Positions 5,884 through 35,958 of a stretch of DNA of 64,000 bases are shown one piece after another (the first letter of the stretch is position 1; the number at the start of each line of letters is the position of its first letter). The DNA comes from Acetobacter sacchari (lineage in GTDB: Bacteria > Pseudomonadota > Alphaproteobacteria > Acetobacterales > Acetobacteraceae), in contig NZ_JAFVMF010000003.1 in assembly GCF_017377715.1 (NCBI RefSeq), forward strand, positions 1-64,000, read 5' to 3'. A program made the translations under genes and the position numbers. The notes beneath the pieces were generated by a model that was given only the letters and a program-made list of their open reading frames with translations, did not search any database and was not told the DNA's origin.

Positions 5884-5893
5884 GACCCGTTGT

Positions 5894-17615: not shown

Positions 17616-19211
17616 TCAGGGCGCGCCGAGGCCGCCGCCGCCGGGCGTCAGCAAATGCAGCCGCTCATCCGACGCGATGACATGTAGCCCTTTCGACGCC
17701 AGTGATCGCCCCTTTGATGTTTTTACGATACCGGCGGCGCCGTCGCTCCCGCCCAGCGCGCCGCGCGGCGGGTGCTTTACGCGATCGAACGCCGCCAGCA
17801 GTTCGAACGGTGCGTCATTTGTTGTGCCGATCTCCATAATCTGTCCGTCGCCGCCACGGGTTTGGCCCGCGCCGCCGCTCCCTTCACGCAGCTCCTTCTT
17901 CCAGAAAATGAGAGGGCACTGGTTTTCGGCGATCTCCACCGGAGTGCCGTGGACGCCGGACGGAAACGCCGTAGCTGATAAGCCATCCAGACCGGGTCGT
18001 GCGCCGGTGCCGCCATTGGTGGTGATCGCCAGAGCGAAGGCTCTGGGTTTCGCATAGCCATCAGGAGACCAGACTCCTCGCACAGCGATGTTCCACAGAC
18101 AGGACGTGCCTTCGGCGGGGACGCGATCCGGCAAGGGCGTGCGCAGGCAGCCAAACACCATGTCGGGCAACATCTGCCCGATGATGTGCCGGGATGAGAC
18201 CGGGGCGGGACGGAGCGCGTTCAGAACCGATCCCGCAGGCGCGTCCACGTGATAGGGCGCGAGCGAACCGGCGTTGTTCGGTACGTCCGGCGAGATGGTG
18301 CAGGCGAGGCCAAACACAGTGTACGCCTTCGTGTAGGCCAGCGGCACGTTGATCCCGCGTGTGACGGCCGGGGGAGAGCCGTCGTAGGAGACGGTTACTC
18401 CGTCGTTGGCGACGGTCAGCGTCGCCTTCAGTTCGAGCGGGGCGTCGTACCCATCCACCGTCATGGCATATGACCAGCACCCTTTCGGAAGTGAGGCGAT
18501 TTTTTCGAGGACGGCCTGACGGGAGCGATCGATGATGTAGTTCGCCAGAGGTTCAATCGTGTCGATGCCGAACTCATCCATCATGTCGCGCAGGGCGACG
18601 GAGCCGGCCTCGTTGCAAGCGACCAGAGAATAGGTGTCGCCTTCCGTGTCCACTGGCAGGCGTGTGTTGGCGCGGATCATGGCCATCAACGTCTCGTTCA
18701 CCGTGCCCTGATCGACCAGCTTGAGCATGGGGATCGACAGACCTTCCATGAACACGTCGGTGGCGTCGGGGCCATTGCCCAGACCGCCGATGTCCATCAA
18801 ATGACCTGTGCAGGAAAACAGCGCCACCAGCTTTCCGCGATAAAAGGTGGGCGTGGTGATGACGAAATCGTTCAGATGTCCAGTGCCCATCCACGGATCG
18901 TTGGTGATGTAAGCGTCGCCTTCCTTCATCGTCTCAACAGGAAAGTGACGCAAAAAATGGCTGACCGATTCCGCCATGGAATTCACATGGCCCGGCGTGC
19001 CGGTGACGGCCTGCGCCACCATGCGGCCCTGCGTATCGAAGACGCCGGCAGAAATGTCCTCGCACTCGCGCACGATCGGGCTGAAGGCGGTGCGGATCAG
19101 GATGCGCGCCTGTTCCCCTACGACGGAAATCAGGCGATTCCACATGATCTGGAACCGGATCTCCTGTTGCGCGTCCGTTGGTGCGCCGGTGTGGGAGGCG
19201 TTCGTCGTCAT
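17616..19211 (-). CDS. Hydantoinase B/oxoprolinase family protein (subunit B)
   Basis: Hydantoinase_B family subunit, 531 aa, the partner of HyuA-type subunits in ATP-dependent ring-opening or carboxylation of hydantoins, 5-oxoproline, lactams or acetone/acetophenone. Family segments: SVVGEQARILIRTAFSPIVRECEDISAGVFD near the N-terminus, GDAYITNDPWMGTGHLNDFVITTPTF, MLPDMVFGCLRTPLPDRVPAEG, and the Gly-rich end HLLTPGGGGLGAP. The start overlaps the stop of subunit A by 4 bases (ATGA), implying coupled translation of a heteromeric enzyme. The substrate is not determined by sequence. Confidence 0.92.
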   Translation of the reverse strand: MTTNASHTGAPTDAQQEIRFQIMWNRLISVVGEQARILIRTAFSPIVRECEDISAGVFDTQGRMVAQAVTGTPGHVNSMAESVSHFLRHFPVETMKEGDAYITNDPWMGTGHLNDFVITTPTFYRGKLVALFSCTGHLMDIGGLGNGPDATDVFMEGLSIPMLKLVDQGTVNETLMAMIRANTRLPVDTEGDTYSLVACNEAGSVALRDMMDEFGIDTIEPLANYIIDRSRQAVLEKIASLPKGCWSYAMTVDGYDAPLELKATLTVANDGVTVSYDGSPPAVTRGINVPLAYTKAYTVFGLACTISPDVPNNAGSLAPYHVDAPAGSVLNALRPAPVSSRHIIGQMLPDMVFGCLRTPLPDRVPAEGTSCLWNIAVRGVWSPDGYAKPRAFALAITTNGGTGARPGLDGLSATAFPSGVHGTPVEIAENQCPLIFWKKELREGSGGAGQTRGGDGQIMEIGTTNDAPFELLAAFDRVKHPPRGALGGSDGAAGIVKTSKGRSLASKGLHVIASDERLHLLTPGGGGLGAP

Positions 19212-21301
19212 GCCGCAGATTCTTTCATGGTCAGGACAATGTTGCCGCTGCCGTCGATATGCGCGTCATATCGGGCGGACACGTAGGTTGTTGTTTCGTC
19301 CTCGCGGATCAGTGCAGGACCGCTCAGGGCGTCGCCGGGGTGCATGGTCTTGCGATAATGGACCGGCAGATCGACGACCGTGCCGATGTCGCCGGAGAAG
19401 AAATCACAGCGTTCGTCGGGTTGGGTCTGTTGTAGTGGCGGCGTGGGCGCATAAGGCTCCGGCGTCTCAACAGGCGCCGAAATAGTGACGGACCAGTTCA
19501 TCACCTCGACAGCAGCCCCCGGAATGGCGCGTGAGAACTGGCGCGCATAATCCTGTTCGAAGGCCGCACGGAGGGCGGCGACATCGGAGAATTCATCGTC
19601 ACCGTCCGGCAGGCGCACAGTGATCTCATGACCCTGCCCGACGTAACGCATGAACGCGTTACGTTCGACGCGAAGAGCGTCCCGGCGAGAGTCCTGCGCC
19701 AACACAGCCATGATGGAGTCCGCCATGTCGCCAAGCAATGCGGAAATGGCCGCCACATCGAAACTATCGTCAATGCGCATCGGGTAAGAGCGGACGATCT
19801 CAAAGGCCAGAGGCGCGGCGAGAAAGCCGACAGCTGAACCAACGCCTGCGTTGGACGGGATCACGAGGCGACGCACGCCCAGCTTTTCCGCCACCCGAGC
19901 GGCGTGGAGGGGGGCTGCGCCGCCGAAGGCGATCATCGTGTGTTCCGCGATGGCGACGCCTCGCTCCACGGCGTGAACGCGCGCGGCGCTGGCCATGTTT
20001 TCGCACACCATCTCGTAAACCGCGTGGGCCGCCATTTCCGCTGTCAGGCCAAGCGGTTCGCCAATATCCGAGAGCAGCGCCTGCTTCGCGAGTTCGGGGC
20101 GCAACGTCATGCTGCCTCCCGCGAAGCCTTCCGGGCGCAGCAGACCAAGCGCGATATCGGCGTCCGTAACGGCGGGCCGCGCGCCGCCGAGGCCGTAGCA
20201 GGCGGGTCCGGGAACTGAAGATGCGCTTTCCGGTCCGACCGTCACCCGCTTCATCGCGTCGAGATGCGCGATGGAGCCGCCGCCCGCCCCGATTTCGACC
20301 ATTTCAATGACGGGAATACGCAACGGCAGGCCAGACCCCTTCATAAAGCGTGTCGTGCGATCAACCTCAAAGGTGCGCGACGAGGTGGGGCGAAAATGTT
20401 CGACAAGGCAGACCTTGGCCGTCGTGCCGCCCATATCGAAGGACAACACATGAGAGTCGTTCATCTTCTGCGCGCATTGCGCGGCAAAGATCGCGCCACC
20501 CGCCGGGCCGGACTCCACCAGGCGCACGGGAAACTGACTGGCGGTCTCAAGGGAGGTCAGCGCCCCGCTCGACGTGACGAGATAGAGCGCGCCTTTAAAA
20601 CCGTCTCGGGACAAGCCGTTGCGCAGACGACCCAGATAGCCCGCCATCAAAGGTTGTACATAAGCATTGGCGACCGTCGTGGAGGTGCGCTCGTACTCGC
20701 GAACTTCCGGGCAAACTTCGCTGGAAATCGATATGGTGGCATGAGGAAGAGCTGCTGAAAGAATATCGCGCGCACGCGTTTCGTGCGAGTGGTTGGCGTA
20801 TGAGTGGAGGAAAGCGATGGCGATGCTTTCGATCCCGATTTTTCGAAGCTCGTCAGCGATCTTTAGCAATTCCCTCTCATCAAGAGGTTTTCTGATCTGT
20901 CCGCGGGCGTCCATGCGCTCTGGCGCCGTGAAGCGCAGGGCGCGGGGCACGAGCGGCGCAGGCTTTCGAAGCATCAGATCATATTGGTTAAAGCGACTCT
21001 CCGTGCCGATTTCGATTACGTCACGAAATCCCTCCGTGCCGATGAGAGCTGTTTTGGCGCCCCGTCTTTCGATGATCGCGTTTGTCGCAAGGGTCGTGCC
21101 GTGAACGAATTCGTCGACGTCCGACAGATTGGTTCGGGCGTCCTGCAACGCCAACGCGGCGCCGTTCATCACGCCTTCCTCCGGAGCGGACGGCGTCGTC
21201 AGCACTTTGCGCGTATAGCGCCCGTCTGGAGTGTCGAGCACCACGTCGGTGAATGTGCCGCCGATATCGACGGCGAGGCGAATGGCGGTTCTGTCAGTCA
21301 T
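19208..21301 (-). CDS. Hydantoinase A/oxoprolinase family protein (subunit A)
   Basis: HyuA-type subunit with an actin/ASKHA ATPase fold, 697 aa from the ATG at 21301; an in-frame ATG at 21346 adds 15 residues unrelated to the family. The N-terminus RLAVDIGGTFTDVVLD is the phosphate-1 motif; GTTLATNAIIERRGAKTALI, SFDMGGTTAKVCLVE and the GAGGGSIAHLD block are also typical. The family splits into N-methylhydantoinase, 5-oxoprolinase, acetone carboxylase and lactam hydrolase (OplA/CapA) types. With subunit B it forms an ATP-dependent enzyme for a cyclic amide or related compound. It is divergent from the winged-helix regulator, 81 bases away. Confidence 0.92.
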   Translation of the reverse strand: MTDRTAIRLAVDIGGTFTDVVLDTPDGRYTRKVLTTPSAPEEGVMNGAALALQDARTNLSDVDEFVHGTTLATNAIIERRGAKTALIGTEGFRDVIEIGTESRFNQYDLMLRKPAPLVPRALRFTAPERMDARGQIRKPLDERELLKIADELRKIGIESIAIAFLHSYANHSHETRARDILSAALPHATISISSEVCPEVREYERTSTTVANAYVQPLMAGYLGRLRNGLSRDGFKGALYLVTSSGALTSLETASQFPVRLVESGPAGGAIFAAQCAQKMNDSHVLSFDMGGTTAKVCLVEHFRPTSSRTFEVDRTTRFMKGSGLPLRIPVIEMVEIGAGGGSIAHLDAMKRVTVGPESASSVPGPACYGLGGARPAVTDADIALGLLRPEGFAGGSMTLRPELAKQALLSDIGEPLGLTAEMAAHAVYEMVCENMASAARVHAVERGVAIAEHTMIAFGGAAPLHAARVAEKLGVRRLVIPSNAGVGSAVGFLAAPLAFEIVRSYPMRIDDSFDVAAISALLGDMADSIMAVLAQDSRRDALRVERNAFMRYVGQGHEITVRLPDGDDEFSDVAALRAAFEQDYARQFSRAIPGAAVEVMNWSVTISAPVETPEPYAPTPPLQQTQPDERCDFFSGDIGTVVDLPVHYRKTMHPGDALSGPALIREDETTTYVSARYDAHIDGSGNIVLTMKESAA

Positions 21302-21382
21302 GATGTTCGTCGATGTCCTGAAAGATGTTAAGCTTGCTCGCGGCATGCGCTACGGCGCACAGGAAGCCGGAGGGGGTAAGCA

Positions 21383-21961
21383 ATGGCTCTACGAGGGCGC
21401 GGAAAAGGGGAAGTTGGCGAAATGGACGGAGGCGCGAACGCCCGAGAGCAGGAGAGGCGGCCGTTCATTGTCTCGTCCTCGCATCTTGCGACGCCTGGGA
21501 GCGAGGACCTGAGCGAATTCGAATTTTCTCTGACGGTCGCCAATAATGCTTTTCAGCATTGGATCGTCCGCTGCATGGCGGCGGCGGGCTTGCCGGAACT
21601 GTCGGCGATCGAGACGCTGATCCTGCATCACGTCAACCATCGTGCGAAGGAAAAGAGTATTCCAGACCTGATGTTCGCGCTGAATATCTCCGAACGACAT
21701 TATCTGAATTACGCCATGAAGAAGCTCGACGCGCGCGGACTGATCGAACGACGCAAGCAGGGCAAGGAGGTTTTTGTTCGGACGTCGGTTGCGGGCGCCG
21801 GGTACTGTGCGGATTACGCCCGTCTTAGAAACGCCTGCCTGCTGGAACTGATCCCGGATGATCGTCGGGTCGGCGGTACGGTCATCGCAGAAGTCGCAAA
21901 AGCGTTGCGCATTCTCAATGGATTTTATGAGCAGGCGTCGAGATCCGTGTCGTCTCTCTAA
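21383..21961 (+). CDS. Winged-helix transcriptional regulator (MarR-like, COG5631 type)
   Basis: Predicted DNA-binding regulator of 192 aa. A GGAGGGGG ribosome site lies just before the ATG at 21383; an ATG at 21422 would also give a good protein. The core from about residue 45 (EFSLTVANNAFQHWIVRCM, then SAIETLILHHVNHRAKEKSI and ISERHYLNYAMKKLDARGLI) is a winged helix of the predicted MarR-like group often found beside catabolic operons. It is divergent from hyuA-like and converges on the lactam operon, ending 17 bases from its last gene. It may sense a cyclic amide and control one or both operons; this is inference. Confidence 0.8.
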   Translation: MALRGRGKGEVGEMDGGANAREQERRPFIVSSSHLATPGSEDLSEFEFSLTVANNAFQHWIVRCMAAAGLPELSAIETLILHHVNHRAKEKSIPDLMFALNISERHYLNYAMKKLDARGLIERRKQGKEVFVRTSVAGAGYCADYARLRNACLLELIPDDRRVGGTVIAEVAKALRILNGFYEQASRSVSSL

Positions 21962-21968
21962 TCGTGAT

Positions 21969-22002
21969 ATCCGACCTGTCATGATGTGATCACAGGTCGG
22001 AT
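21969..22002. terminator. Hairpin between convergent genes
   Basis: ATCCGACCTGT at 21969-21979 pairs perfectly with ACAGGTCGGAT at 21992-22002 (11 bp, 12-base loop). It overlaps the last codons and stop of the biotinyl-like gene and lies just after the regulator's stop, so it can serve both strands. T runs are absent. Confidence 0.55.
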
Positions 22003-22413
22003 GCGGAAAACTGCTTCCTGATACCCTATCGGCGTACCGTCGCGCACAAGCTCCTCGGTGATGAGTCCATCCGTCGGCGCCCGGATCGCAAGCCGCAATG
22101 GTCCGACACACACGAAGCCGACCACATCATTTCGCATGACGGAATCCCCGATACTTTTTCCTGCGCTTGCGAAGAGTCCAAGCTCTGGACTTTTTACAAA
22201 AACATCGAATTCGGCCTCTGGATGAGCATTGCCCGTGTCAGGCGATGTATCCAGCGGAATATCAGGGCTTTCGGCCTCCAGCACGACAGACAGGAACGTG
22301 TCTTCGTTTTCAAATTCGAACACGCCTGCGCCATGACGACGCATGGCTGCGACGAGGCTTTCAAGAAAATCACCCGCGATCGGATCTTCGGTCTCGTCTT
22401 TCTGTTGCCTCAT
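21979..22413 (-). CDS. Biotin-carrier-like protein without biotin lysine
   Basis: 144-aa protein with the sequence pattern of the biotinyl/lipoyl domain in its second half (VFVKSPELGLFASAGKSIGD, then VVGFVCVGPLRLAIRAPTDG and LITEELVRDGTPIGYQEAVF). Where carriers have the E-A/V-M-K-M/T hairpin with the modified Lys, this protein has VGFVCVGPLRLAI (98-110) with no Lys in the region. The N-terminal half (FLESLVAAMRRHG) resembles the helical start of AccB proteins. The gene overlaps the biotin carboxylase by 4 bases, so it is made together with it. It may be a structural or regulatory subunit of the carboxylase; it should not be biotinylated. Confidence 0.8.
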   Translation of the reverse strand: MRQQKDETEDPIAGDFLESLVAAMRRHGAGVFEFENEDTFLSVVLEAESPDIPLDTSPDTGNAHPEAEFDVFVKSPELGLFASAGKSIGDSVMRNDVVGFVCVGPLRLAIRAPTDGLITEELVRDGTPIGYQEAVFRIRPVITS

Positions 22414-23765
22414 GACTGCTCTCCCGTGCGGCGTCGGTCGAGAGTATGAACGGTGAAAATGCCAGCTCGAAAATCCGGATCATTCAGAAGACGCACTTGC
22501 CGCGATGCAGTCGTCGGGACGCCGTCGATTTGCAACTCTTCAAGCGCTGTCGACATTCGGCGGATCGCGTCGTTCCGGTCGGAACCATGGACTATGAGTT
22601 TGGCGATCAGAGAATCATAATGCGGCGGGATGGCGTATCCGTCGTAGATGTGGGTATCCACCCGGACGCCGGGACCGCCAGGTGCACGCCATTTTTTTAT
22701 GGTCCCCGGCGCGGGCGCGAAATTTTCCGGATCTTCCGCGTTGATACGACACTCTAGCGCGTGGCCGTTTGTTCTGACGTCGGCCTGTGTGAACGACAGG
22801 GGCGCGCCGGTCGCGATCATGATTTGCTCACGCACGATGTCTACGCCGGACGTCATCTCCGTCACAGGATGTTCGACCTGCAGACGCGTATTCATCTCGA
22901 TAAAGTTGAAATTTCCGTCTTCATAAAGAAATTCGAACGTGCCCGCGCCTGTGTATCCGATGCGGGCGGCAGCGTCCGCGCACGCCAAGCCAAGATCTGA
23001 AATCCGATACTCAGGAATGCCGGGCGGAGGCGCTTCTTCAATCAACTTCTGATGACGCCTCTGCACCGAGCAGTCACGGGCGCCCAGCCATACAGCATTT
23101 CCGTGAGCGTCCGCGAGAATCTGGATTTCCACATGGCGCGGTTCACGCAAAAATCGCTCTACATAAACATCAGCATTTCCAAATGCGAGACCGGATTCTT
23201 TACGAGCGCTCTCAACGGCGTCGAGTAATTCTTCAGCTTTCATGACGACGCGCATGCCCCTTCCGCCACCGCCGCCAGCCGCCTTCACGATGAGCGGATA
23301 TCCGATCGCATCGCATATCGTTCGGATTTCGTCGGGATCGAGAGGTAACGCGGCATCTGAGCCGGGCAGACAAGGCACGCCGTTGGCCTTCATGGCGCGC
23401 CGGGCGCTGATTTTGTCGCCCATAAGGCGCATGACGGATGAAGCAGGACCAATCAGGATCAGTCCTGCCCGTTCGACGGCTTTGGCAAAATCCGGATTTT
23501 CCGAAAGGAAGCCATAACCTGGATGAATTGCGTCCGCTCCCGTCAAGGTCGCTGCGCGAAGTATGCGCTCGCCGTCGAGATAACTATGCGTAGCTGCCGC
23601 TGGGCCGATGCAGATGGCGTGATCAACCAGTCTCAAATGCGCCAATCCGGCGTCGGCCTCGGAATAGACGCCCACTGTGCGCAGTCCAAGAAGCTTGCAC
23701 GCGCGCACGATACGCAACGCGATCTCGCCCCGGTTGGCGATGAGGACCGTCCTGATATCAGGCAT
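22410..23765 (-). CDS. Biotin carboxylase subunit (AccC-like)
   Basis: ATP-dependent biotin carboxylase, 451 aa from the ATG at 23765, which overlaps the upstream carrier gene by 8 bases. It carboxylates the biotin carried by the neighbouring BCCP. Motifs: VLIANRGEIALRIVRACKLLG at the N-terminus, PGYGFLSENPDFA, the ATP-grasp glycine loop KAAGGGGGRGMR near 165, RDCSVQRRHQKLIEEAP near 240, and EMNTRLQVEHPVTEM near 295. All catalytic residues appear intact. Its place inside a PxpBCA operon, and away from any accA or accD, argues for a dedicated carboxylase and not fatty acid synthesis. Confidence 0.92.
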   Translation of the reverse strand: MPDIRTVLIANRGEIALRIVRACKLLGLRTVGVYSEADAGLAHLRLVDHAICIGPAAATHSYLDGERILRAATLTGADAIHPGYGFLSENPDFAKAVERAGLILIGPASSVMRLMGDKISARRAMKANGVPCLPGSDAALPLDPDEIRTICDAIGYPLIVKAAGGGGGRGMRVVMKAEELLDAVESARKESGLAFGNADVYVERFLREPRHVEIQILADAHGNAVWLGARDCSVQRRHQKLIEEAPPPGIPEYRISDLGLACADAAARIGYTGAGTFEFLYEDGNFNFIEMNTRLQVEHPVTEMTSGVDIVREQIMIATGAPLSFTQADVRTNGHALECRINAEDPENFAPAPGTIKKWRAPGGPGVRVDTHIYDGYAIPPHYDSLIAKLIVHGSDRNDAIRRMSTALEELQIDGVPTTASRQVRLLNDPDFRAGIFTVHTLDRRRTGEQS

Positions 23766-24204
23766 CAACCGTCTCCACTGCAAACAGTGGATCGCCCGGT
23801 TCTACGGCCTGTCCGTCTTCGGCTATGATTTCGACGATCTTGCACGGGAACTCGGCCCCGACCCGAGAAAGGGTTTTCATGACTTCGAGAATGTAGAGCG
23901 TCTGCCCTTCTTGCACTGCTGCGCCAACGTCAACGAAAGGGGGTTGCCCTGGTCCTGCGGCCCGGTAGAAGACGCCATGCATGGACGATGACACGATACG
24001 GGTCGAGGGTCCGCCCGCTGACGTTTTTGTAGAAACAGGCGAAGATATGTGTCCAGTCTGGGGGGCGACGGAAGCAACGCCTGATGCGACCGCCTGACGA
24101 ACGATGCGGTAACGCTCTGCGGCGTGTCTGACTTCCAGTTCCGCCACGCCAAGCTTTTGCATGCGCTCCATCAGGGCTTCGGCGCGATTTAAATCGATCG
24201 TCAT
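23758..24204 (-). CDS. Biotin carboxyl carrier protein (AccB-like)
   Basis: 148 aa from the ATG at 24204; an in-frame ATG at 24222 adds six residues. Its layout is that of AccB: an N-terminal helical segment (ALMERMQKLGVAELEVRHAAERYRI), a Ser/Pro/Ala-rich linker, and a C-terminal biotinyl domain from about residue 75. The biotin site is YILEVMKTLSRV, with the modified Lys at residue 110 (116 from the longer start). It follows PxpA directly and precedes biotin carboxylase, so it should carry carboxybiotin to the PxpB/PxpC pair. Confidence 0.9.
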   Translation of the reverse strand: MTIDLNRAEALMERMQKLGVAELEVRHAAERYRIVRQAVASGVASVAPQTGHISSPVSTKTSAGGPSTRIVSSSMHGVFYRAAGPGQPPFVDVGAAVQEGQTLYILEVMKTLSRVGAEFPCKIVEIIAEDGQAVEPGDPLFAVETVDA

Positions 24205-24222
24205 CGACGTCGCATCTTCCAC

Positions 24223-24987
24223 TTATGTTCTTGCTTTTACGGATATTCCCGCCGCTTCAAGTTGGGCGCGCACTTTTCGGGCCACGTCGACAGAATGAGC
24301 GTTATCGCCATGCACGCAAATCGTGTCGATTTGCGCTGGCAGCATCGTGCCGGAGCGGGTTTCGATGGCGCCGCTGGAAATCATGCGGACCGCGCGCTCC
24401 GCAGCGAAATCAGCATCGTGAAGAACGGCGTCGGCTTCCTTGCGCGACACCAGGTGGCCATCTTCCGTGTACGCGCGGTCCGCAAAAATTTCCGAGAATA
24501 CGGTCATACCGCGTTCTCGCCCGATCCGCTCCAGATGGCTCAGCGCGATGGCCATGATCGGCAACGTCGGATCTACGCTACGAACCGCGTTGGCGACCGC
24601 CGTTGCGACGGATTCGTCCCGTTCGGTCAAATTGCCGAGGGCCCCATGCGTTTTCAGGTAGGTAATTTTGTGCCCGGCATAAGCAGCAAGAGCCTGAGCG
24701 GCGCCAAGTTGATAGGCGATGATGCGTTCAATTTCGCTTGGGTTGAACGGCATGACGCGTCGTCCGAAGCCCCACAGATCTGGAAAACCGGGGTGGGCGC
24801 CGACGGCGACGCCCTTTTCGCGCGCCATGGCGAACGTAGCGGCCATCACCTCGGGATCGCCGCCATGGAACCCGCAGGCGACGTTGGCCGACGTCACGAT
24901 GTCCAGCATGTCGGAATCACTTCCGATTGTGTAGTGGCCGAAGCTTTCACCAAGATCGGCGTTCAGGTCGACAGTCAGATCGGGCAT
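24223..24987 (-). CDS. pxpA: LamB/YcsF family, 5-oxoprolinase subunit A
   Basis: PxpA/LamB/YcsF family, 254 aa from the ATG at 24987, with AAGGA 10 bases upstream; the open frame runs 40 codons further but family similarity starts here. Marks: VDLNADLGESFGHYTIGSD at the N-terminus, SANVACGFHGGDPEVM near 33, AVGAHPGFPDLWGFGRR near 62, HGALGNL near 120, and ICVHGDNAHSV near 228. With PxpB and PxpC it makes the prokaryotic ATP-dependent 5-oxoprolinase. Here a biotin carrier and carboxylase follow in the same operon, so the substrate may be another lactam. Confidence 0.93.
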   Translation of the reverse strand: MPDLTVDLNADLGESFGHYTIGSDSDMLDIVTSANVACGFHGGDPEVMAATFAMAREKGVAVGAHPGFPDLWGFGRRVMPFNPSEIERIIAYQLGAAQALAAYAGHKITYLKTHGALGNLTERDESVATAVANAVRSVDPTLPIMAIALSHLERIGRERGMTVFSEIFADRAYTEDGHLVSRKEADAVLHDADFAAERAVRMISSGAIETRSGTMLPAQIDTICVHGDNAHSVDVARKVRAQLEAAGISVKART

Positions 24988-25012
24988 CCCGCAAAGTCCT
25001 TCGTGAAACGCG

Positions 25013-25984
25013 TTATCGGGCGAGGAGCGTCGCGCGTGCAGATTGCAAGGCGAGACCAAGTTCATGCATTCGGATGGCGTCCGCCCGAACGGCTGCAACG
25101 GCTTCATCCAGTTCGACGCGGATAAAACGTATCTGCCGACCTGTCTGGGTCTGGGCCAGAAGGCGCAGGTCCGGTTCGATCACATTCGCGATCTTGGGGT
25201 AACCGCCGCAGGTGTTGGCGTCAGCCATCTGGACAATGGGCATTCCGGCGGACGGGACCTGAATCGTTCCGGGGACGATTCCGTGCGACAACAGCTCCAA
25301 CGGGGAGCGCAGGCTCAATGGCGTCTCGCTCTCCAGCCGATAGCCAAGGCGGTTTGCTGTCCTTGTGACCGTCCATAGTTGCTCAAAGAACAGCGCCTGT
25401 GAATCATCAGTGAACGCATCGAATTCGGCGGCAGGCAGGCAGCGAACCTCAGCCACGTTCTCAGGGAGGTCGCACGGATGCGCCAGCCCATACCCACTGG
25501 ATGGCATGTCCTTTGCGTCAGAGGGAAACGCGGCCAGCCGTGTCCCGGCTTCCAACGCTCGCCCCTGATATCCTCCAAACCCCCCCTTCATGTCCGTCGA
25601 TCGGGATCCCAGAACAACCGGAACATCAAGCCCCCCGGCAAATGTCACATAACTTCGCGCGCCGTTGGCCGGAGCGTGCAGAGTCAGGATCTGCCCCGCC
25701 CGAGCCTTTGCGGCCCAATCGGGAGGCAAAGGCTCGTCATCGAGACGAGCGACCCCGCGGGCGCCTGTTACCGCGAAGGCTTGATCAGCATGAAAACGAA
25801 CCTTGAATGGAAAGAAGACGACTTCGATCCCAGCGGCGTCGATATCGTTCCCCAGCAGCAGATTGCCCAGCTTCAAGGCCGCGGAGTCCATGGCTCCTCC
25901 CCGGGATACGCCGAGCGTCATCGTTCGGGGGCGCCCGAGATCCTGGATGGTGTTGAGCGGAGAGCCCGTCAGGACTTCGATCAT
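25013..25984 (-). CDS. pxpC: Biotin-dependent carboxyltransferase-like protein, 5-oxoprolinase subunit C
   Basis: PxpC/KipA family, 323 aa, homologous to the AHS2 (carboxyltransferase) part of urea carboxylase. Marks: IEVLTGSPLNTIQDLGRP at the N-terminus, GVSRGGAMDSAALKLGNLLLGN near 27, EVVFFPFKVRF, GGYQGRALEAG near 140, SHGIVPGTIQVPSAGMPIVQMADANTCGGYPKIANV near 235. Its ATG overlaps the PxpB stop by 4 bases, as expected for a tight heterodimer. In the usual oxoprolinase PxpBC phosphorylates or activates the lactam; with AccB/AccC present a carboxyl transfer to the lactam nitrogen is possible. Confidence 0.92.
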   Translation of the reverse strand: MIEVLTGSPLNTIQDLGRPRTMTLGVSRGGAMDSAALKLGNLLLGNDIDAAGIEVVFFPFKVRFHADQAFAVTGARGVARLDDEPLPPDWAAKARAGQILTLHAPANGARSYVTFAGGLDVPVVLGSRSTDMKGGFGGYQGRALEAGTRLAAFPSDAKDMPSSGYGLAHPCDLPENVAEVRCLPAAEFDAFTDDSQALFFEQLWTVTRTANRLGYRLESETPLSLRSPLELLSHGIVPGTIQVPSAGMPIVQMADANTCGGYPKIANVIEPDLRLLAQTQTGRQIRFIRVELDEAVAAVRADAIRMHELGLALQSARATLLAR

Positions 25985-26622
25985 CCGACTCTCCTGAACT
26001 TTACGCGATCACCCAGTCGAAACAGGCAGGGTTCGGCACGATGCGCGTCGAAGAGAATTTCCTCGGTTTTGCCGAGAATATGCCACCCTGTTGGTGATGT
26101 GCAGGGCATGACGCCGGCCTGTCCGCCGCCGATGGAAACCGCGCCTTGCTCGACACTGACGCGCGGCGACGCTCGTCTGGGTATCGCGAGGCGTGGGTCG
26201 AGACCCGTCAGGTATGCAAAGCCCGGCATCGCTCCGATTGCGGCTACGCGGTATTCGCCCGAGACGTGAGCCGCAATGACTTCTTCCTCAGTCAAGCCCG
26301 CAAAACGCGCTACGACCGGTATATCCTCCCCGAAAGTTCCACCGTAGGTCACGGGCAGCACGATTTCGCGAGCCGGTGAGGCGTCGACCAACGTGTCTTC
26401 CCAAACCGCTCGCAGGCTATGTTCGAGTGTAGCCGGATCATATTGAACAGCGTCGAAAACGATCAGGAGGTTATTCACGCCCGGCACGGCCTGAAGAATT
26501 TCCGGCTGAGCGGCCATGCGTCGTGCGACCGCCCAGATGCGTTCCTGCACGCTGTCGTTGAATGCGCCGTGCGCGGCGTCGAGTAACAGGGCGCCTGCTC
26601 CTGCACAGCTGATGCGAATCAT
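25981..26622 (-). CDS. pxpB: Allophanate hydrolase subunit 1 family, 5-oxoprolinase subunit B
   Basis: PxpB/KipI family, 213 aa, homologous to the AHS1 region of urea carboxylase. Marks: ISCAGAGALLLDAA at the N-terminus, LQAVPGVNNLLIVFDAV near 45, LPVTYGG near 98, DIPVVARFAGLTEEEVIAAHVSGEYRVAAIGAMPGFAYLTGLDPRL (about 108-155), and SVEQGAVSIGGGQAGVMPCTSPTGWHILGKT. Overlaps of 4 bases with both the upstream MFS carrier and the downstream pxpC show a tightly coupled operon. Confidence 0.92.
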   Translation of the reverse strand: MIRISCAGAGALLLDAAHGAFNDSVQERIWAVARRMAAQPEILQAVPGVNNLLIVFDAVQYDPATLEHSLRAVWEDTLVDASPAREIVLPVTYGGTFGEDIPVVARFAGLTEEEVIAAHVSGEYRVAAIGAMPGFAYLTGLDPRLAIPRRASPRVSVEQGAVSIGGGQAGVMPCTSPTGWHILGKTEEILFDAHRAEPCLFRLGDRVKFRRVG

Positions 26623-27875
26623 GACGTAATGGTCCGGTGCGCGTGAATATGGCGACGCGGCATCAGAAACACCGCAACTGAGCCGACAAGAATGATGAAA
26701 GCCGCAATATAGAAAACAGCATGAAAGTTACCTGTGGCCTGAAGAAGATAACCCGTGAGGACTGGCGCTGCGATCCCAAGTCCATTGCTGAATGTCAAGG
26801 TCAGACCGGTCACCGAACCAAGACTGCCGCGCTCCACGAGGAGATCGGCCAGAAGCGCCATGTTGGCCCCGGTGCCCGCTGTCACACAGGCGATGGCGAC
26901 AATCAGCAAAGCGATGGCCGCAAAGGGAGAGTGACAGAGCGGGAATGCGCCCAGCATGGAGGCCATGGCTAGAAAAAAACTTACGGCATGGCGCCGAGTT
27001 CCGGCTGTCGTTTCGGCATTCCGGACCGAACGTTCGCCGAGCTTGCCAAGCGCCAGAGACAGCATGGTGGCGCCAAGGTAACTGTAGGCCGTGTATAATC
27101 CCGACTGCATGAGAGACAGATGGAACGTGTCGCGCAGAATTGTCGGTAGCCATGACATTAGAAGAAAATTGGCATAATTTCCGCAACATTGCGGAATTAC
27201 TATACCCCAGAAATCGCGAGATCGAAACAGGGTCGGGATTGAAATTAACGCGAACGCATCTCGCGTATCGCTCACCTGCAATGCGGATTTGGAGGGATAT
27301 ATCCAGAGCCATGCCAATGACCACATAAGGCCGAGTGCGCCAAGGATTGAAAATGTTGACCGCCAACCGAATGTTTCCACCAACCACGCGCTGGCGATTG
27401 CTCCGGTCGCGAGGCCAATAGGAATGCCGCAGATAAAGGCCGTCATCATCAGCCCCCGTTCGCCGGGGCGCGCCCAATACCGCATGACCTTATTGCCGAG
27501 GGCGAAAGTCGGAGATTCCCCGACCCCAAGCAAAATGCGTGTCGCGATAAAGGCGGGAACCGTTGTCGCCACGCTGCCGAAAATCATGGCGAGAGACCAC
27601 AATGTCACGGCGGCGGCGCCTACAAGACGCGTGCCGATCCGATCAAGCGTGATGGCGCTGGGTAAGTTCAGAAAGAAATACGACCATAGAAAACTGGATA
27701 ACACCCAGCCGGTTTCGCTGGGGGAAAGGCCGAATTCCTTCGCGACGCGAGGCATGGCGACCGAAAGGGCCGCGCGATCCCCATAGCATATGACGCACAT
27801 GATGATCGTCAATGCGTAGATCGTGAAACGGAGCCGACGTGATGCGTCCGCTCCGGACGTGTATGAAGACGGCAA
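26619..27875 (-). CDS. MFS transporter, anion:cation symporter-like
   Basis: Inner-membrane carrier, 418 aa, starting at a TTG (27875) with GCGAGG about 8 bases upstream; the open frame continues 107 codons upstream but runs into the receptor gene and has no transporter character. About 12 hydrophobic segments. Typical of the ACS/phthalate-glucarate group: ICYGDRAALSVAMPRVAKEFGLSPSETGWVLSSFLWSYF at the first two helices, NLPSAITLDRIGTRLVGA, ATRILLGVGESPTFALGNKVMRYW, GERGLMMTAFICGIPIGLATG. Its position between the TonB receptor and PxpB makes it the likely inner-membrane importer for the operon's substrate. Confidence 0.88.
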   Translation of the reverse strand: MPSSYTSGADASRRLRFTIYALTIIMCVICYGDRAALSVAMPRVAKEFGLSPSETGWVLSSFLWSYFFLNLPSAITLDRIGTRLVGAAAVTLWSLAMIFGSVATTVPAFIATRILLGVGESPTFALGNKVMRYWARPGERGLMMTAFICGIPIGLATGAIASAWLVETFGWRSTFSILGALGLMWSLAWLWIYPSKSALQVSDTRDAFALISIPTLFRSRDFWGIVIPQCCGNYANFLLMSWLPTILRDTFHLSLMQSGLYTAYSYLGATMLSLALGKLGERSVRNAETTAGTRRHAVSFFLAMASMLGAFPLCHSPFAAIALLIVAIACVTAGTGANMALLADLLVERGSLGSVTGLTLTFSNGLGIAAPVLTGYLLQATGNFHAVFYIAAFIILVGSVAVFLMPRRHIHAHRTITS

Positions 27876-27904
27876 TGCTGGCACCTCGCGATATGTGAGG
27901 ACGG

Positions 27905-30406
27905 TCAGAACGAGAAATTCGTCCTGACGTAATACATGCCGCCATTGAAACCATAAGGCGAGTAATAAGAGTACTTGTAAGCGCCGAACAACGGTCCCGA
28001 GATGGATTTCGGAATGCGGGTCGGATATTTGTTCCCCAGATTGTTGGCGCCGATCGCCAGGCTCCACTGCGGCAGAATCTTGTAGGATACCTCGAGGTTG
28101 GTCAAAAAAGCCGGGCGCTGCGTGACGCCGGCTGCTGTCGGGCTCGCCAAAAACAGCGTCGAACCATAACGCTGCTCCTGCACGAAGACGCCCCATCGCC
28201 CGCGATTCCAGTTCAGCGACAGGCTTTCCCGGTTTTTCGGAGCCGAATGTAGCAGCATTTGTTCGGCGTATTTATTGTAACTGCTGAGACCGTACTGCGC
28301 GAGCACAGCCGGGGTTTTGTTGTAGCTTCGAACTTCGTTGTCAGAATAATTGAAAGTGAAGGCGAATTTGAACGTGCCCGCCCGCTGCGTGTGCAAGGTA
28401 TAATCGGTGCTGATGTCCCCGCCGTAAGTCTGCGTGTTTAGTGGGTTTGTGTAGTATGAGGCGTATGTGACGTTCTGCAGTCCGGAAGATGCGAGGATAT
28501 CCGCAACTTCAGTTCCGCCGAGCGTGGTCGTGCTGGCGAGGCGATCATTGATCGCGATGTAGTAAAGGTTCCCCGTGAAATGCCAGTTCTCCAACGGCGT
28601 TGCATCCAGACCAACGCTGTAGCTGCGGGAGTACTCGCCTTTGATCTTGCCTGCGCCAAGAGCTTGCGCTGCTGCGCTGCTGTTCGGTAGCTGATCTACG
28701 GAGTAGGTGGCGAAGGGCGCGTTGTAGAAATAATAGGTCTGGCCGAGAGTTGGCGGACGATATCCAGTGTTGACGCTGGCGCGGATCGCCCAGTTGCGAT
28801 TGAAATTGTAGCGTGTGCCGATACTGCCGGTTTCGACTGTCGCCAAGTGGGAGTAACTGGTGGCTCGGCCGCCAATTGTCCATTCCCAATTCTTCGTGAC
28901 AAAAAAATCGAGATTGACGTTGCCTTCGTAAATGTCACGACTGCGGTTTGTCGCAGCTGCAGGTATGTTTCCGCCATGATCGGTCGCGCCGAGGCCGTAC
29001 CAGGAGTCCCGCTCGCCCTCGGTCATCTGGAATGTATCGCGGCGGTATTCGCCGCCGAACCGCAAGCCGATCGGCTTCGGCAACCATGACGTCCGGAATT
29101 CGCGAGAGCCGCGCACACCGGCTGATAATTCGGACGTAATGGCTTTTCCGTCGTAAAAATTTCGCGGGCTGCTGTCGCCGAGGGAGACGTTATTGCTGTG
29201 AATCGTGGAATATGCCTGATCGTCACGTCCATAATTGACGTAGGCGTCCCATGAAAAGCCCAGCGCATGAGCCTTGATCCCATTGTCGGTCTCAAAGTCG
29301 TACTGGTCCATCGCGATGTAGGGGATGGCGCCATTTGGCCAGAGCGTGCTGTTGGTCAGGCTGTTGGCGGCGCTGCGGTAGGTCTCCGCGACATTGACGC
29401 GACGGTGACCGAACGTACTGGTACTGTAGAGATTCACGTTGTGCGCGAGAGGGATTTCCATGTTTTCGCTAAGCGTTTCCATCGTAGACTTTGGAACGCC
29501 GAGCATGCGATTGACGTCACGACTTGCCGTCTCGTTGCGTGAATCGCCTGTGGGGTAAAGTTGCCCGACGAAATCCCCGCTTCGGTTGCTGGGTTGTTGA
29601 TGCGTCACCTGGGCGGCAAGATCGAGATAGCCGCCCTGTCTTCCCAGCTTCATGCCGTAGTCGGCGTATCCGTTCACGGCCTGCCCGTCGCCAGCGTAGA
29701 AGCCGCTGTTCTGGAAGTTGACCGATCCACCATGATCTCGGTTTTTCAGGACGATATTGACTGCGCCAGCGATCGCGTCTGCGCCGTACAGGGCGGATGC
29801 GCCCTCGGTTATGACTTCGATATGATCGATTGCGGAAATGGGAATCAGCGATATGTCGGCGGGCTCGGTGCCCCAGTTGGGCCCGGCGTTCGCGTTGAAA
29901 TTGGCGCCGAGATGACGGCGGTGGCCGTTGACCAGAATCAGCGTGTCGTCAGCGGATTGGCCGCGAAGCTGCATGGTCTGCACGAATGCGTTGTTGCCGA
30001 CGCCAGGTTGTGGCGGAGCCGTGATCGCAGCCGAGGCCTGCGCCAGAGCACTCATCACGTTGGTCTGACCGGTGCTGAGCAATTGTGCGCCAGAGACCAC
30101 CGTCACCTGCGTGGTGCTGTGTACTGGCGTAGACGGGGACAGGACCGAAGTGCCGATAGTACGCCCTGCCACGTCTATTTGTTCAGGAGACGCGTTGGCG
30201 CGGACGGCGCTTCGCTGCGAGCGGGCGACGATGTGCGGGCGACCGCCAGCTGCAGGAATGGAGGTCGACGCGGGCGGAACGGGCGAGATGTGTTTGTGTG
30301 CGATATGCTTCGTCGCCGTGGCGCTTGACGCAGCATAGGTGAATGTAGGGGTGACTAGGGCGATACCGCAAAGGAGGACTGATTTTAAACCGATGAGACG
30401 AGTCAT
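27905..30406 (-). CDS. TonB-dependent receptor (lactam operon)
   Basis: Outer-membrane receptor, 833 aa, first gene of the operon. Signal peptide about residues 1-26 (LIGLKSVLLCGIALVTPTFT), then a His/Pro/Ala-rich segment. The plug runs from about residue 75 (VVSGAQLLSTGQTNVMSALA, MQLRGQSADDTLILVNGHRR, ISAIDHIEVITEGASALYGADAIAGAVNIVLK), then a beta barrel ending VRTNFSF with an aromatic terminus. The plug is of the type seen in receptors for organic substrates, where ILVNGHRRHL and SALYGADAIAGAVNI recur. The operon context points to a cyclic amide, small peptide or a complex containing one as ligand. Confidence 0.9.
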   Translation of the reverse strand: MTRLIGLKSVLLCGIALVTPTFTYAASSATATKHIAHKHISPVPPASTSIPAAGGRPHIVARSQRSAVRANASPEQIDVAGRTIGTSVLSPSTPVHSTTQVTVVSGAQLLSTGQTNVMSALAQASAAITAPPQPGVGNNAFVQTMQLRGQSADDTLILVNGHRRHLGANFNANAGPNWGTEPADISLIPISAIDHIEVITEGASALYGADAIAGAVNIVLKNRDHGGSVNFQNSGFYAGDGQAVNGYADYGMKLGRQGGYLDLAAQVTHQQPSNRSGDFVGQLYPTGDSRNETASRDVNRMLGVPKSTMETLSENMEIPLAHNVNLYSTSTFGHRRVNVAETYRSAANSLTNSTLWPNGAIPYIAMDQYDFETDNGIKAHALGFSWDAYVNYGRDDQAYSTIHSNNVSLGDSSPRNFYDGKAITSELSAGVRGSREFRTSWLPKPIGLRFGGEYRRDTFQMTEGERDSWYGLGATDHGGNIPAAATNRSRDIYEGNVNLDFFVTKNWEWTIGGRATSYSHLATVETGSIGTRYNFNRNWAIRASVNTGYRPPTLGQTYYFYNAPFATYSVDQLPNSSAAAQALGAGKIKGEYSRSYSVGLDATPLENWHFTGNLYYIAINDRLASTTTLGGTEVADILASSGLQNVTYASYYTNPLNTQTYGGDISTDYTLHTQRAGTFKFAFTFNYSDNEVRSYNKTPAVLAQYGLSSYNKYAEQMLLHSAPKNRESLSLNWNRGRWGVFVQEQRYGSTLFLASPTAAGVTQRPAFLTNLEVSYKILPQWSLAIGANNLGNKYPTRIPKSISGPLFGAYKYSYYSPYGFNGGMYYVRTNFSF

Positions 30407-30877: not shown

Positions 30878-31300
30878 CTAATCGTCGCTACGCACGCTCC
30901 GGTTGCGTTTGATGCCGGCCCGATGAGCCTTGCCGTCCAGTCTGCGCTGCCGGGCGGCGCGACCCGGTCTGGTGGCCACGCGGAACGCGGGCCTGTGCGC
31001 GGCCTCACGGATCATCTCGGCCAATCGTTCGATCGCGTCCTCGCGGTTGCGTTGCTGTGTGCGAAAGCGCCGCGCAGTGATGACGATAACGCCGTTACGC
31101 GTGACGCGACTTCCTGCAATTTCCAGCAGGCGGACGCGCACTCGTTCCGGCAGGGACGAAGAGAGGGCGGCGTCAAAGCGCAATTGAGCCGCCGTCGCCA
31201 CCTTGTTGACGTTCTGCCCGCCGGGGCCTGATGCAAGGATGTAGCTGACCTCCAGCTCGGACTCGGCCAGGGACAGTCCGGGAAGGATCATGATCGCCAT
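30878..31300 (-). CDS. arfB: Alternative ribosome-rescue factor ArfB (peptidyl-tRNA hydrolase)
   Basis: 140-aa class I release-factor-like protein that frees ribosomes stalled without a stop codon. The catalytic GGQ is in ILASGPGGQNVNKVATAAQLRFD (residues about 22-44). No codon-recognition domain is present, and the C-terminus is the basic tail (RPGRAARQRRLDGKAHRAGIKRNRS) that enters the empty mRNA channel in ArfB/YaeJ. Length and layout match ArfB. It is a single housekeeping gene between two catabolic operons. Confidence 0.93.
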   Translation of the reverse strand: MAIMILPGLSLAESELEVSYILASGPGGQNVNKVATAAQLRFDAALSSSLPERVRVRLLEIAGSRVTRNGVIVITARRFRTQQRNREDAIERLAEMIREAAHRPAFRVATRPGRAARQRRLDGKAHRAGIKRNRSVRSDD

Positions 31301-31841: not shown

Positions 31842-32864
31842 TCACTTTTTTAGTCGGCCGAATGTCGCGGTTCCCCTTGAGCCCGAAGGAAGAGCCAGTT
31901 CGCCACGTTCAACTTTCCTTACAAGATACTGGTAGGTCTGCAGCGCCTGCGACCACATGTGATCGCCGATCTTCAAGACTTCATAACCACTGTCTTCCTC
32001 TGCGAACGCGGGAAGCGGTTTGATTGCAGTGTGGTAATCGCACGCGTAGAAAAGCGGAAAGGAATAGCGTTCCTCTCCGACCTTGCGGACGCGATGCGCC
32101 GTGGCGACGAACGCGCCCGCAGTCATCACTTCCAGCATATCACCGATATTGACGACGAATGTTCCGGGGCGCGGCGGCGCGTCGATCCATTCGCCACGTT
32201 CGTTCATGACCTCCAGTCCCGGTGCGTCCGCAAGGAGGATGGTGAAGCATTCGTAATCCGTATGGGCGCCGATGCCTGGCGCGTCCTGGGCTTCCGCGTC
32301 GAATGGGTAATGGATCATGCGCAGTTTGGACGGTGGATATTTGGCCATGTCGTCAAACGTGTTTTCAGGGAGCCCCAGGGCCAGAGCGAATCCCTGAAAC
32401 AAAGTCCGCCCAAGCTCGAACACCGCTCGGTAATAGGCTTCGGCGCGCTCCCTGAAGCCGGGAACGTCCGGCCAGTCGTTGGGGCCAAGTAGAGGGGTCC
32501 CGGCCAGCACCAGCGGGTTGTCAGCAGGAACCTCGTAGCCGATATCGAAGGCTTCCTTATGGTCCGGGCGGCCTGTTCCGTATACTTCTTCGCCTTCGGG
32601 GACATAGCCTTTGTGGGTGGCTGAGCGCCCGATGTAATACGCCATCTTGCGTTCCATCGGCAGGGCGAAGAGATCCCGTGCGGCACTCCTCACGCCGTCG
32701 ATGAGCGTCGGGTCTACCCGGTGCCCGGAGATATAAAGGAAGCCGATATTGCGCGCAGCGTCGCCCAGTTCGCAGGCGACGGCCTCGCGCTTTTCAAGAT
32801 CGGGCGAATAGAGGCCAGAAATATCAACCTCAGGAATTGAGGTAAAAGATTTCGTATCCGCCAT
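31842..32864 (-). CDS. 2-oxoglutarate/Fe(II) oxygenase, isopenicillin N synthase-like
   Basis: Non-haem iron oxygenase of the IPNS-like family, 340 aa from the ATG at 32864; the open frame extends upstream but without family similarity. N-terminal DIOX_N domain (IPEVDISGLYSPDLEKREAV) and C-terminal 2OG-FeII domain. Iron ligands are His201 and Asp203 in GAHTDYECFTIL and His257 in ATAHRVRK; Arg266 and Ser268 in RYSFPLFY bind 2-oxoglutarate. Fe(II) and 2OG sites are complete. It lies 151 bases after the YtcJ-like amidohydrolase gene on the same strand, probably in the same operon, and would hydroxylate or otherwise oxidise the unknown substrate. Confidence 0.9.
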   Translation of the reverse strand: MADTKSFTSIPEVDISGLYSPDLEKREAVACELGDAARNIGFLYISGHRVDPTLIDGVRSAARDLFALPMERKMAYYIGRSATHKGYVPEGEEVYGTGRPDHKEAFDIGYEVPADNPLVLAGTPLLGPNDWPDVPGFRERAEAYYRAVFELGRTLFQGFALALGLPENTFDDMAKYPPSKLRMIHYPFDAEAQDAPGIGAHTDYECFTILLADAPGLEVMNERGEWIDAPPRPGTFVVNIGDMLEVMTAGAFVATAHRVRKVGEERYSFPLFYACDYHTAIKPLPAFAEEDSGYEVLKIGDHMWSQALQTYQYLVRKVERGELALPSGSRGTATFGRLKK

Positions 32865-33015
32865 GGTCTGCATCTTTCTGATTTTTTGTGGAAAAGTCGG
32901 ATTGATTTTTCGCGGGAGTTTAACGTGAACTGTCGACGCTTCGAACACAGGGGCGGCGATGGGCGGAGGTCGTTGGATCAAAAAACAGGTTTGACACCGA
33001 CCGCCGCGGGAGAAT

Positions 33016-35732: not shown

Positions 35733-35958
35733 GATTTCCTTACGGGATCAGAGTTCAAAACAACGAAACAACGAAACAACAATGTCTGGAAAATGAAAAC
35801 TTGCAAGAAAACGGCGTCTCACGTTTCCCGTCGATTGGCGCGGGATGAAGACACCTTGACGCTTCGTCTGATCGGACTGCCGCGTCCAATTGTAGAATGA
35901 CGTTCGCGAAGGACAGGGGTTGAGTCCGTATCGATCAACGAAGCACGGAGATACGGTT

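Follow-up and report, generated by a model that had tools for sequence, protein, structure and literature searches.

What role do a biotin carboxylase (BC) and its carrier play in an operon built around pxpB, pxpC and pxpA, the genes of what Niehaus et al. in 2017 reportedly described as the prokaryotic 5-oxoprolinase of Bacillus subtilis and Escherichia coli? The question is raised by eight genes on the minus strand at positions 21,979 to 30,406 of a 64,000-nucleotide stretch of the Acetobacter sacchari genome (contig NZ_JAFVMF010000003.1, positions 1 to 64,000; hereafter the window). In addition to PxpABC, these genes encode a BC, a biotin carboxyl carrier protein (BCCP), a second carrier-like protein devoid of the biotinylated lysine, and two putative uptake proteins. 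The reading favored here, with a probability of roughly 0.6, is that the operon specifies a single six-subunit biotin-dependent lactam hydrolase, of which both the chemistry and the substrate are putative. That a multi-subunit biotin enzyme is the functional unit is considered highly probable, and its action as a carboxylase is favored, less firmly.

A sequence-only reading of the window had described this run as a receptor-to-enzyme operon for a biotin-dependent carboxylase of cyclic amides. The eight genes that it delineated are present in the list of open reading frames, and Pfam and NCBIfam recognize seven of them. PxpB (25,981–26,622), which comprises carboxyltransferase subdomains C/D (PF02682, CT_C_D, 220 bits), exceeds the cut-off of TIGR00370 (181 vs. 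145.55 bits), and PxpC (25,013–25,984), which comprises subdomains A/B (PF02626, CT_A_B, 282 bits), exceeds that of TIGR00724 (285 vs. 230.2 bits) and remains below that of the 5-oxoprolinase equivalog NF045499 (284 vs. 500 bits). PxpA (LamB/YcsF; 24,223–24,987; PF03746, 314 bits) exceeds the cut-off of the subfamily model NF003814 (359 vs. 226 bits); its start was placed at the ATG at 24,987, where the domain begins, the longest open reading frame running from 25,107. The BCCP-type carrier (23,758–24,222; PF00364, Biotin_lipoyl, 47 bits) has lysine at the biotinyl column within an MK motif, so that the EVMKT site is intact, as had been claimed. The AccC-like BC (22,410–23,765) contains all three BC Pfam domains and retains, at an offset of +8, all 13 of the residues that we take to form the active site of E. 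coli BC. The last gene (21,979–22,413) encodes a protein of 144 amino acids without a family match in Pfam or NCBIfam at E 0.001, which a profile match to E. coli BCCP and a predicted fold mark as a lysine-less BCCP paralogue.

Upstream in the same run lie the first gene, for a TonB-dependent outer-membrane receptor of 833 amino acids (27,905–30,406; Pfam Plug and TonB_dep_Rec_b-barrel), and the gene for a carrier of the major facilitator superfamily (MFS; 26,619–28,196; Pfam MFS_1, 180 bits). The best NCBIfam match of the latter, TIGR00893, is below its cut-off (180 vs. 395 bits), and its start is uncertain, the MFS domain beginning near residue 132 of the longest open reading frame. Overlaps of 4 to 8 bases, said to join most of the genes, occur at four of the seven junctions: 4 bases at MFS/PxpB, PxpB/PxpC and BC/144-residue protein, and 8 bases at BCCP/BC, given a BC start at the ATG at 23,765. 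PxpA abuts BCCP without overlap, and a gap of about 25 bases separates PxpC from PxpA, given the PxpA start at 24,987. Loci of Acetobacter, Gluconacetobacter and Gluconobacter repeat the order TonB receptor, MFS carrier, PxpB, PxpC, PxpA, BCCP, BC, 144-residue protein. The operon is more than a chance assembly, as the loci of three genera show.

The linkage of BC with pxp genes was assessed in 299 Pseudomonadota genomes, of which 103 contain CT_C_D (PF02682). From these, 99 PxpB loci were taken (open frames under about 900 amino acids, outside the window and outside urea carboxylase), along with 15 urea carboxylases (one control and 14 more long-frame places; other long-frame rows and a weak match in genome G241 were excluded) and 20 further Acetobacteraceae loci (numbers 1 to 19 and 21 in a ranking of 39 places other than the window). 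The tallies exclude L246, which has no pxp genes, and L247 and L248, which repeat L132 and L170; they count L261, a 3.1-kb contig, as having BC only, and they ignore kinship, many Gluconobacter loci being near-copies, so that Fisher values computed on them serve for description only. A BC gene was present in the fetched stretch at 23 of the 99 PxpB loci, where chance would give about 0.9, judging by how densely BC genes occur in 20 chosen genomes, and 22 of the 23 also had a lysine-bearing carrier and PxpA, the exception (L218) stopping at a contig end. The conserved linkage of pxpABC with accB/accC, a search for which the sequence-only reading had suggested, was thereby borne out. Among the further Acetobacteraceae loci, 16 have BC, both carriers, PxpB and PxpC, and 15 also have PxpA; no BC was found in the fetched stretch of L260, L264 or L267, and L261 is cut short. 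Gene order is shuffled among those 16 loci, and the gene for the lysine-less carrier may adjoin that of BC, lie between pxpC and pxpA, or belong to a divergent operon.

Loci with BC follow four arrangements: the acetic-acid type, with the order of the window; BCCP–BC–lysine-less carrier–PxpB–PxpC–PxpA, with variants; a PxpB–PxpC fusion (unfused in L183) with a BC–BCCP fusion and PxpA; and PxpA–BCCP–BC–PxpB–PxpC, here called Pseudomonas aeruginosa-like. Excluding urea carboxylases, 140 loci were classified, of which 42 have BC and the lysine-less carrier, always accompanied by a lysine-bearing carrier; 19 have BC only (12 fused-type, six P. aeruginosa-like and L261); one, L178, has the lysine-less carrier only; and 78 have neither. 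The phylogenetic trees are quick searches with SH-aLRT support only, in which near-identical Acetobacteraceae rows were thinned. In the PxpB+PxpC tree (124 rows), all BC-linked rows fall within one part of 66 rows (support 86), which also includes 18 BC-less rows and the 15 urea carboxylases; the remaining 58 rows are all BC-less. In the tree of 61 BCs, which took in 24 AccC and five urea-carboxylase rows, the fused-type BCs and urea carboxylase each form a separate clade with support 100, as do the P. aeruginosa-like and the window-type BCs with support 98. The window-type clade consists of 13 pxp-linked BCs, including that of the operon, and is nested in a branch of 26 rows (99) that it shares mostly with gammaproteobacterial AccC. 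Clades of BC-linked PxpBC correspond to these BC clades. Because the window-, fused- and P. aeruginosa-type BCs are separate lineages, the trees indicate that an association with PxpBC arose on more than one occasion and in three or more BC lineages. Such repeated recruitment would be difficult to account for if PxpBC did not use carboxybiotin or, at the minimum, bind the BC complex. It counts against the operon being an ordinary ATP-dependent 5-oxoprolinase, in which PxpBC would use ATP directly and BC, carrier and lysine-less protein would be present for an unrelated reason; so do the survival of the gene set through shuffling of its order and the failure of PxpC to reach the equivalog cut-off, while the scores of PxpA and PxpB above their NCBIfam cut-offs speak for it.

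BC and BCCP are also the parts of acetyl-CoA carboxylase, and the operon copies might have been the only ones in the cell. The A. sacchari genome (4.55 Mb, 166 contigs, an estimated 99.7% complete) contains one further BC and BCCP pair, adjacent on contig C143. The AccC of this pair scores 724 bits with the accC model TIGR00514, compared with 628.7 bits for the operon BC (cut-off 626.5), and its carrier scores 122 bits with the BCCP model TIGR00531, compared with 92 bits for the operon carrier, which is below the cut-off of 115.2. An accD gene that passes its model is present on contig C25 and accA on contig C151, and in the BC tree the genome's own AccC (L235) groups with other alphaproteobacterial AccC. 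The second accB/accC pair, with accA and accD elsewhere, excludes the operon genes as the sole acetyl-CoA carboxylase parts, in agreement with the sequence-only reading, and the operon BC and BCCP appear to be dedicated to the Pxp proteins rather than to fatty-acid synthesis. A related alternative, that the operon harbors a second half of an acetyl-CoA or acyl-CoA carboxylase that merely travels with pxpABC, can point to the descent of the BC clade from the AccC family and to a score 2 bits above the accC cut-off; it is nonetheless very improbable, as the operon lacks accA and accD, its carrier misses a cut-off that the other carrier of the genome passes, and BC clades correspond to PxpBC clades. 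The genome encodes only one PxpB and three PF01039 proteins, namely accA, accD and a third match (C143, 21,770–22,327; L239) that is the beta subunit of a biotin-independent malonate decarboxylase, leaving the operon BC without a second carboxyltransferase of this type to serve.

The operon component most likely to be new is the lysine-less second carrier, which carries CVGPL where BCCP has EVMKT. Of a family profile built on 12 rows, positions 8–141 of 144 match E. coli BCCP (4hr7_B, from the entry for the E. coli BC–BCCP complex) with E 2e-18. Its AlphaFold2 model shows an N-terminal helix and a carrier domain (mean predicted local distance difference test score, pLDDT, 78.9; 92–96 at residues 71–140, below 50 at residues 1–10 and 49–65), and Foldseek searches with this model return biotinyl domains, 1bdo first, with 4hr7 and the plant BCCP 9a87 within the top 17. 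The protein is thus predicted to have the biotinyl-domain fold. The second carrier-like protein of the sequence-only reading is therefore a BCCP paralogue by profile and predicted fold, but one without the biotinyl lysine. As lysine is missing from this column in all 43 loci that have the protein, the idea that it accepts biotin at the position used by the normal carrier was rejected.

The fused-type and P. aeruginosa-like BC loci, 18 in all, have no lysine-less carrier. In the carrier tree (81 rows; few columns, with 31 of 78 inner branches open), the lysine-less proteins form one side of a branch with support 92, or 99 for the 31 that remain without L132, and this family groups apart from the lysine-bearing carriers. 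Comparison with two close relatives gave dN/dS values of 0.32 and 0.59 for the lysine-less protein, 0.28 and 0.39 for the lysine-bearing carrier, and 0.09 and 0.08 for BC; its presence in 43 loci and dN/dS below 1 make a decaying gene unlikely, though constraint is weak. Among 385 alphaproteobacterial genomes, in which 10 or fewer candidates were scored per genome and misses are likely, two matched at E 1e-22, the window's own genome and G477, the latter through a normal EAMKT carrier beside BC (L246). With only the window's own genome a true match within that limit, a widespread occurrence of the lysine-less carrier in Alphaproteobacteria was rejected.

Residues of PxpB and PxpC change together with this subunit. 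Residue 131 of PxpB, in the GFxPGF motif, is Ala in the window instead of the usual Phe and is other than Phe in 41 of the 43 lysine-less-carrier loci (20 Ala, 19 Ser, 2 Val; the exceptions are L027 and L132), whereas Phe is found in 96 of the 97 other loci, the sole exception being Ser in L261, a BC locus that is possibly of the lysine-less-carrier type. By the presence of this Phe, a 5-oxoprolinase criterion taken from the alignment of the present analysis, the window PxpB is not of that kind. PxpC residue 185 shifts in step, being Ala in 40 of the 43 loci and Gly in 84 of 96 others, a concerted change that counts against an ordinary 5-oxoprolinase. In all 15 urea carboxylases the residue 131 column is Asp (Asp1584 in Kluyveromyces lactis). 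Because this position is Phe in the 5-oxoprolinase type, Asp in the urea enzymes and small here, the alignment suggests a pocket that fits a different, larger ring.

The neighbors of the lysine-less-carrier loci also bear on the substrate. Outside the 20 window-like loci, 16 of the remaining 23 contain a short-chain dehydrogenase/reductase (SDR; at least 50% identity to that of L256) and 20 contain an aminotransferase (at least 46% to that of L251), and none of the 78 BC-less and 19 BC-only loci reaches these levels (best 34% and 35%, respectively). Neither protein reaches the cut-off of its closest model, which is that for YdfG 3-hydroxy acid dehydrogenase in the case of the SDR and one for aspartate transaminase in the case of the aminotransferase. 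In the 20 window-like loci, the fetched flanks yielded no SDR or aminotransferase of this kind; instead, 17 of these loci have hyuA, a gene for a subunit of ATP-dependent lactamases. Taken together, the altered PxpB pocket and the linkage to SDR and aminotransferase make it unlikely that plain 5-oxoproline is the substrate, and the SDR, aminotransferase and hyuA neighbors point to the catabolism of substituted lactams.

A split urea (or guanidine) carboxylase would have the identical domain set, and a precedent for separate subunits exists in L212 (7,357–11,002), where PxpB, PxpC, a short carrier (ELMKQ) and BC form a set that is sister to urea carboxylase (SH-aLRT 97) and is possibly a relic of the state that preceded fusion into a single chain. 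In the window, however, PxpA is present instead of allophanate hydrolase, and Ala131 and Arg149 of PxpB replace two urea-carboxylase residues, Asp1584 and Lys1605, respectively, the latter being the general base (PMC5770610; here and below, statements on cited papers follow the portion of each text that was available). Ten matches to allophanate hydrolase were found in the genome, all below the TIGR02713 cut-off of 511 bits, with 201 bits as the highest score. For want of a hydrolase match above the cut-off and of the Lys and Asp residues, this alternative was rejected as very improbable.

In the mechanism proposed for the operon, BC would use ATP to transfer a carboxyl group from bicarbonate to the biotin of the EVMKT carrier, which would swing to PxpB–PxpC, a homologue of the urea-carboxylase carboxyltransferase, for carboxylation, and hence activation, of a ring amide. 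PxpA would then open the activated ring with departure of CO2, so that ATP would pay for ring opening and, because the CO2 is released at this step, bicarbonate would act catalytically. The lysine-less paralogue would be a non-catalytic subunit that aids the assembly of PxpBC with BC and the carrier, in the way that BADC does for the plant acetyl-CoA carboxylase, and the TonB receptor and MFS carrier would take up the substrate, probably a lactam that is larger than 5-oxoproline or otherwise distinct from it. We infer complex formation in A. sacchari, carboxylation as the means of activation, the role of the lysine-less subunit and the class of substrate. A broader proposal, which is tentative and held at somewhat less than even odds, is that such operons define a bacterial class of six-subunit biotin-dependent lactam-opening enzymes with substrates larger than 5-oxoproline, assembled via a lysine-less BCCP that would be a counterpart of BADC arisen outside acetyl-CoA carboxylase, and feeding SDR oxidation and transamination in relatives that are not window-like.

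Several observations weigh against the proposed biotin-dependent lactam hydrolase. Of the 99 PxpB loci, 76 have no adjoining BC, making PxpABC without BC the commoner form, one that can evidently act without a dedicated BC; PxpABC of B. subtilis and E. coli reportedly acts without an added biotin enzyme. Furthermore, the nearest BC-less relatives fall within the PxpBC clade of the window, so BC may be an add-on. The same-clade BC-less genomes G166, G279 and G110 have a single BC, which shows that a dedicated BC is dispensable for PxpBC of this clade; the housekeeping BC may be borrowed instead. The column of the general base Lys1605 is Lys in all 15 urea carboxylases, in the six P. aeruginosa-like BC loci and in the BC-less L219, and Arg, as at position 149 of the window PxpB, in all 43 lysine-less-carrier loci, all 12 fused-type loci and 77 of the 78 BC-less loci. 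Thus, either Arg149 has a different function, in a carboxyl transfer of another kind, or the window-type enzyme activates its substrate by other means. The BC-less majority, the biotin-free action of the Bacillus and E. coli enzymes and the Arg shared with BC-less loci all suit the ordinary 5-oxoprolinase; given the evidence from BC lineages and from the paired PxpB and PxpC changes, that alternative is nevertheless thought improbable. As a separate observation, L219 (genome G237) encodes PxpABC of the P. aeruginosa-like clade and retains the Lys general base, with no BC in the fetched stretch.

Further points against concern the lysine-less protein, which evolves fast by the dN/dS values above, and its distribution, since 36 of its 43 loci (the window, 19 loci and 16 further genomes of its family) are from Acetobacteraceae, with many near-copies, the rest bearing four other family labels. 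In L178 (genome G222, 1,747–8,157), the lysine-less carrier is kept with PxpABC, the SDR and the aminotransferase, and there is no dedicated BC or lysine-bearing carrier nearby; the three BC matches of this genome are one AccC-like protein and two urea-carboxylase frames. The lysine-less protein of L178 thus goes with PxpBC and not with BC, and may act in a complex that includes the housekeeping carrier or else contact PxpBC itself. Finally, PDB entry 9yx5 (released 2025-11-26) is the long chain acyl-CoA carboxylase complex of Mycobacterium smegmatis with MSMEG_0435–MSMEG_0436 bound, and by its title and chain names it places PxpC- and PxpB-like chains beside AccA3, a biotin carboxylase. A PxpBC homologue sitting on an acyl-CoA carboxylase could reflect docking and not catalysis.

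Docking of this kind, the lack of the general-base Lys and the gene set of L178 all favor PxpBC as a regulator or scaffold on the BC complex, for example one that diverts or holds carboxybiotin, with ring opening a separate matter. This alternative is unlikely, although it is a slightly stronger contender than the ordinary 5-oxoprolinase: the operon BC has no PF01039-type carboxyltransferase of its own, the others being accA, accD and the malonate decarboxylase subunit, and BC-linked PxpBC falls together with urea carboxylase, which is a genuine carboxyltransferase. The claim of a multi-subunit biotin-dependent carboxylase in the sequence-only reading thus gained support from the dedicated BC and BCCP, their recurring linkage with pxp genes and 9yx5, while Arg149 in the place of Lys1605 and the prevalence of the BC-less form count against it. 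A proprietary outer-membrane receptor, also claimed, is encoded in the window operon, but it occurs in only 17 of the 43 lysine-less-carrier loci at 70% or more of the query, or in 20 when split (L015) and edge-cut (L254, L258) genes are counted, and is unlikely to be an obligatory part; L016 starts inside the MFS gene, and receptors outside the fetched stretches would escape. The MFS carrier was found in 25 of the 43.

The operon is flanked by a gene for a winged-helix regulator on the plus strand (21,383–21,961; PF13463, 52 bits), relatives of which occur in 19 of the 43 lysine-less-carrier loci and in three of the 78 BC-less loci. Beyond it, a neighboring minus-strand unit encodes a HyuA/CapA-like ATP-dependent lactamase subunit (19,208–21,346; PF01968, 260 bits), which is below the cut-off of the caprolactamase-alpha profile (480 vs. 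1000 bits), and a HyuB/CapB-like subunit (17,616–19,211; PF02538, 487 bits), the two genes overlapping by 4 bases. All 17 occurrences of hyuA among the 43 loci are in window-like ones. A second HyuA-like match was seen on contig C143 of the same genome, and L014 has a second PxpA gene (11,413–12,213, minus strand) near its operon, where most relatives have hyuAB. Upstream of the operon, on the minus strand, are a gene for a 140-residue RF-1 domain protein resembling peptide release factors (30,878–31,300) and a catabolic-looking run (31,842–40,904) that encodes a 2OG-Fe(II) oxygenase, an Amidohydro_3 protein, a TIM-barrel isomerase-like protein and a second TonB receptor, and ends with an ABC transporter and a family-3 binding protein.

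If the proposed lactam hydrolase is correct, a family seen as a plain metabolite-damage enzyme becomes a branch of biotin carboxylases, and a little-studied use of CO2 to break cyclic amides in acetic acid bacteria would be indicated. The pocket signature and the linked SDR and aminotransferase make a search for the substrate practicable. With the PxpABC 5-oxoprolinase the window shares PxpA, PxpB and PxpC as separate adjacent genes; it differs by Ala131 in place of Phe131 in PxpB and by the addition of a dedicated BC, a lysine-bearing carrier, a lysine-less carrier, a TonB receptor and hyuAB next door. The PxpABC 5-oxoprolinase has also been described from Corynebacterium glutamicum (pxpTABC), and in the main text available for that study the words carboxylase, accB and bicarbonate each occur 0 times (PMC13274462).

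The P. aeruginosa-like type differs from the window in the absence of a lysine-less carrier and the retention of the general-base Lys, as in L214 and L216. The PA0492–PA0496 cluster of P. aeruginosa is presumably of this PxpA–BCCP–BC–PxpB–PxpC type, and its genes other than those for AccB- and AccC-like proteins are, we assume, homologues of YcsF, KipI and KipA. AccB- and AccC-like genes have been noted in the PA0493–0496 operon, whose function was given as unknown (PMC6249292); the cluster is also treated in PMC5521831, and a 2011 study noted split carboxyltransferase genes, none of which had yet been studied (PMC3199775). The biotin-dependent enzyme proposed here would explain why AccB- and AccC-like genes recur beside pxpABC, as in the P. 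aeruginosa operon (PMC6249292). None of the literature titles and abstract openings searched describes a biotin-dependent PxpABC.

Urea carboxylase/amidolyase (K. lactis 3va7 and 5i8i; PMC5770610) likewise combines BC, carrier and an AHS1/AHS2-type carboxyltransferase; the window differs in having separate chains, in PxpA instead of allophanate hydrolase, and in Arg149 and Ala131 for Lys1605 and Asp1584. The present reading would provide a natural route from separate subunits to the single-chain enzyme. The 9yx5 entry resembles the proposed complex in that PxpB/PxpC homologues and a biotin carboxylase are within one assembly, and differs in that its AccA3 chain also bears the biotinyl domain; no lysine-less carrier chain was among its matches listed for the family profile. 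Caprolactamase CapAB/HyuAB, whose homologous hyuAB pair adjoins the operon, opens lactams with ATP and needs bicarbonate, and the mechanisms proposed for it, in the text available, involve no biotin (PMC8453981); its protein families are unrelated to the Pxp and BC set. Finally, plant BADC proteins are BCCP paralogues without a biotinylation motif that are said to hold BC and BCCP together like glue and that a 2025 paper regards as exclusive to the plant enzyme (PMC11926652). The 144-residue protein resembles them in anatomy, being BCCP-type with an N-terminal region and a carrier domain that lacks the motif, and differs from them in being bacterial, pxp-linked and outside acetyl-CoA carboxylase; as a subunit of a bacterial enzyme, it would show that carboxylase building of this kind is not confined to plants.

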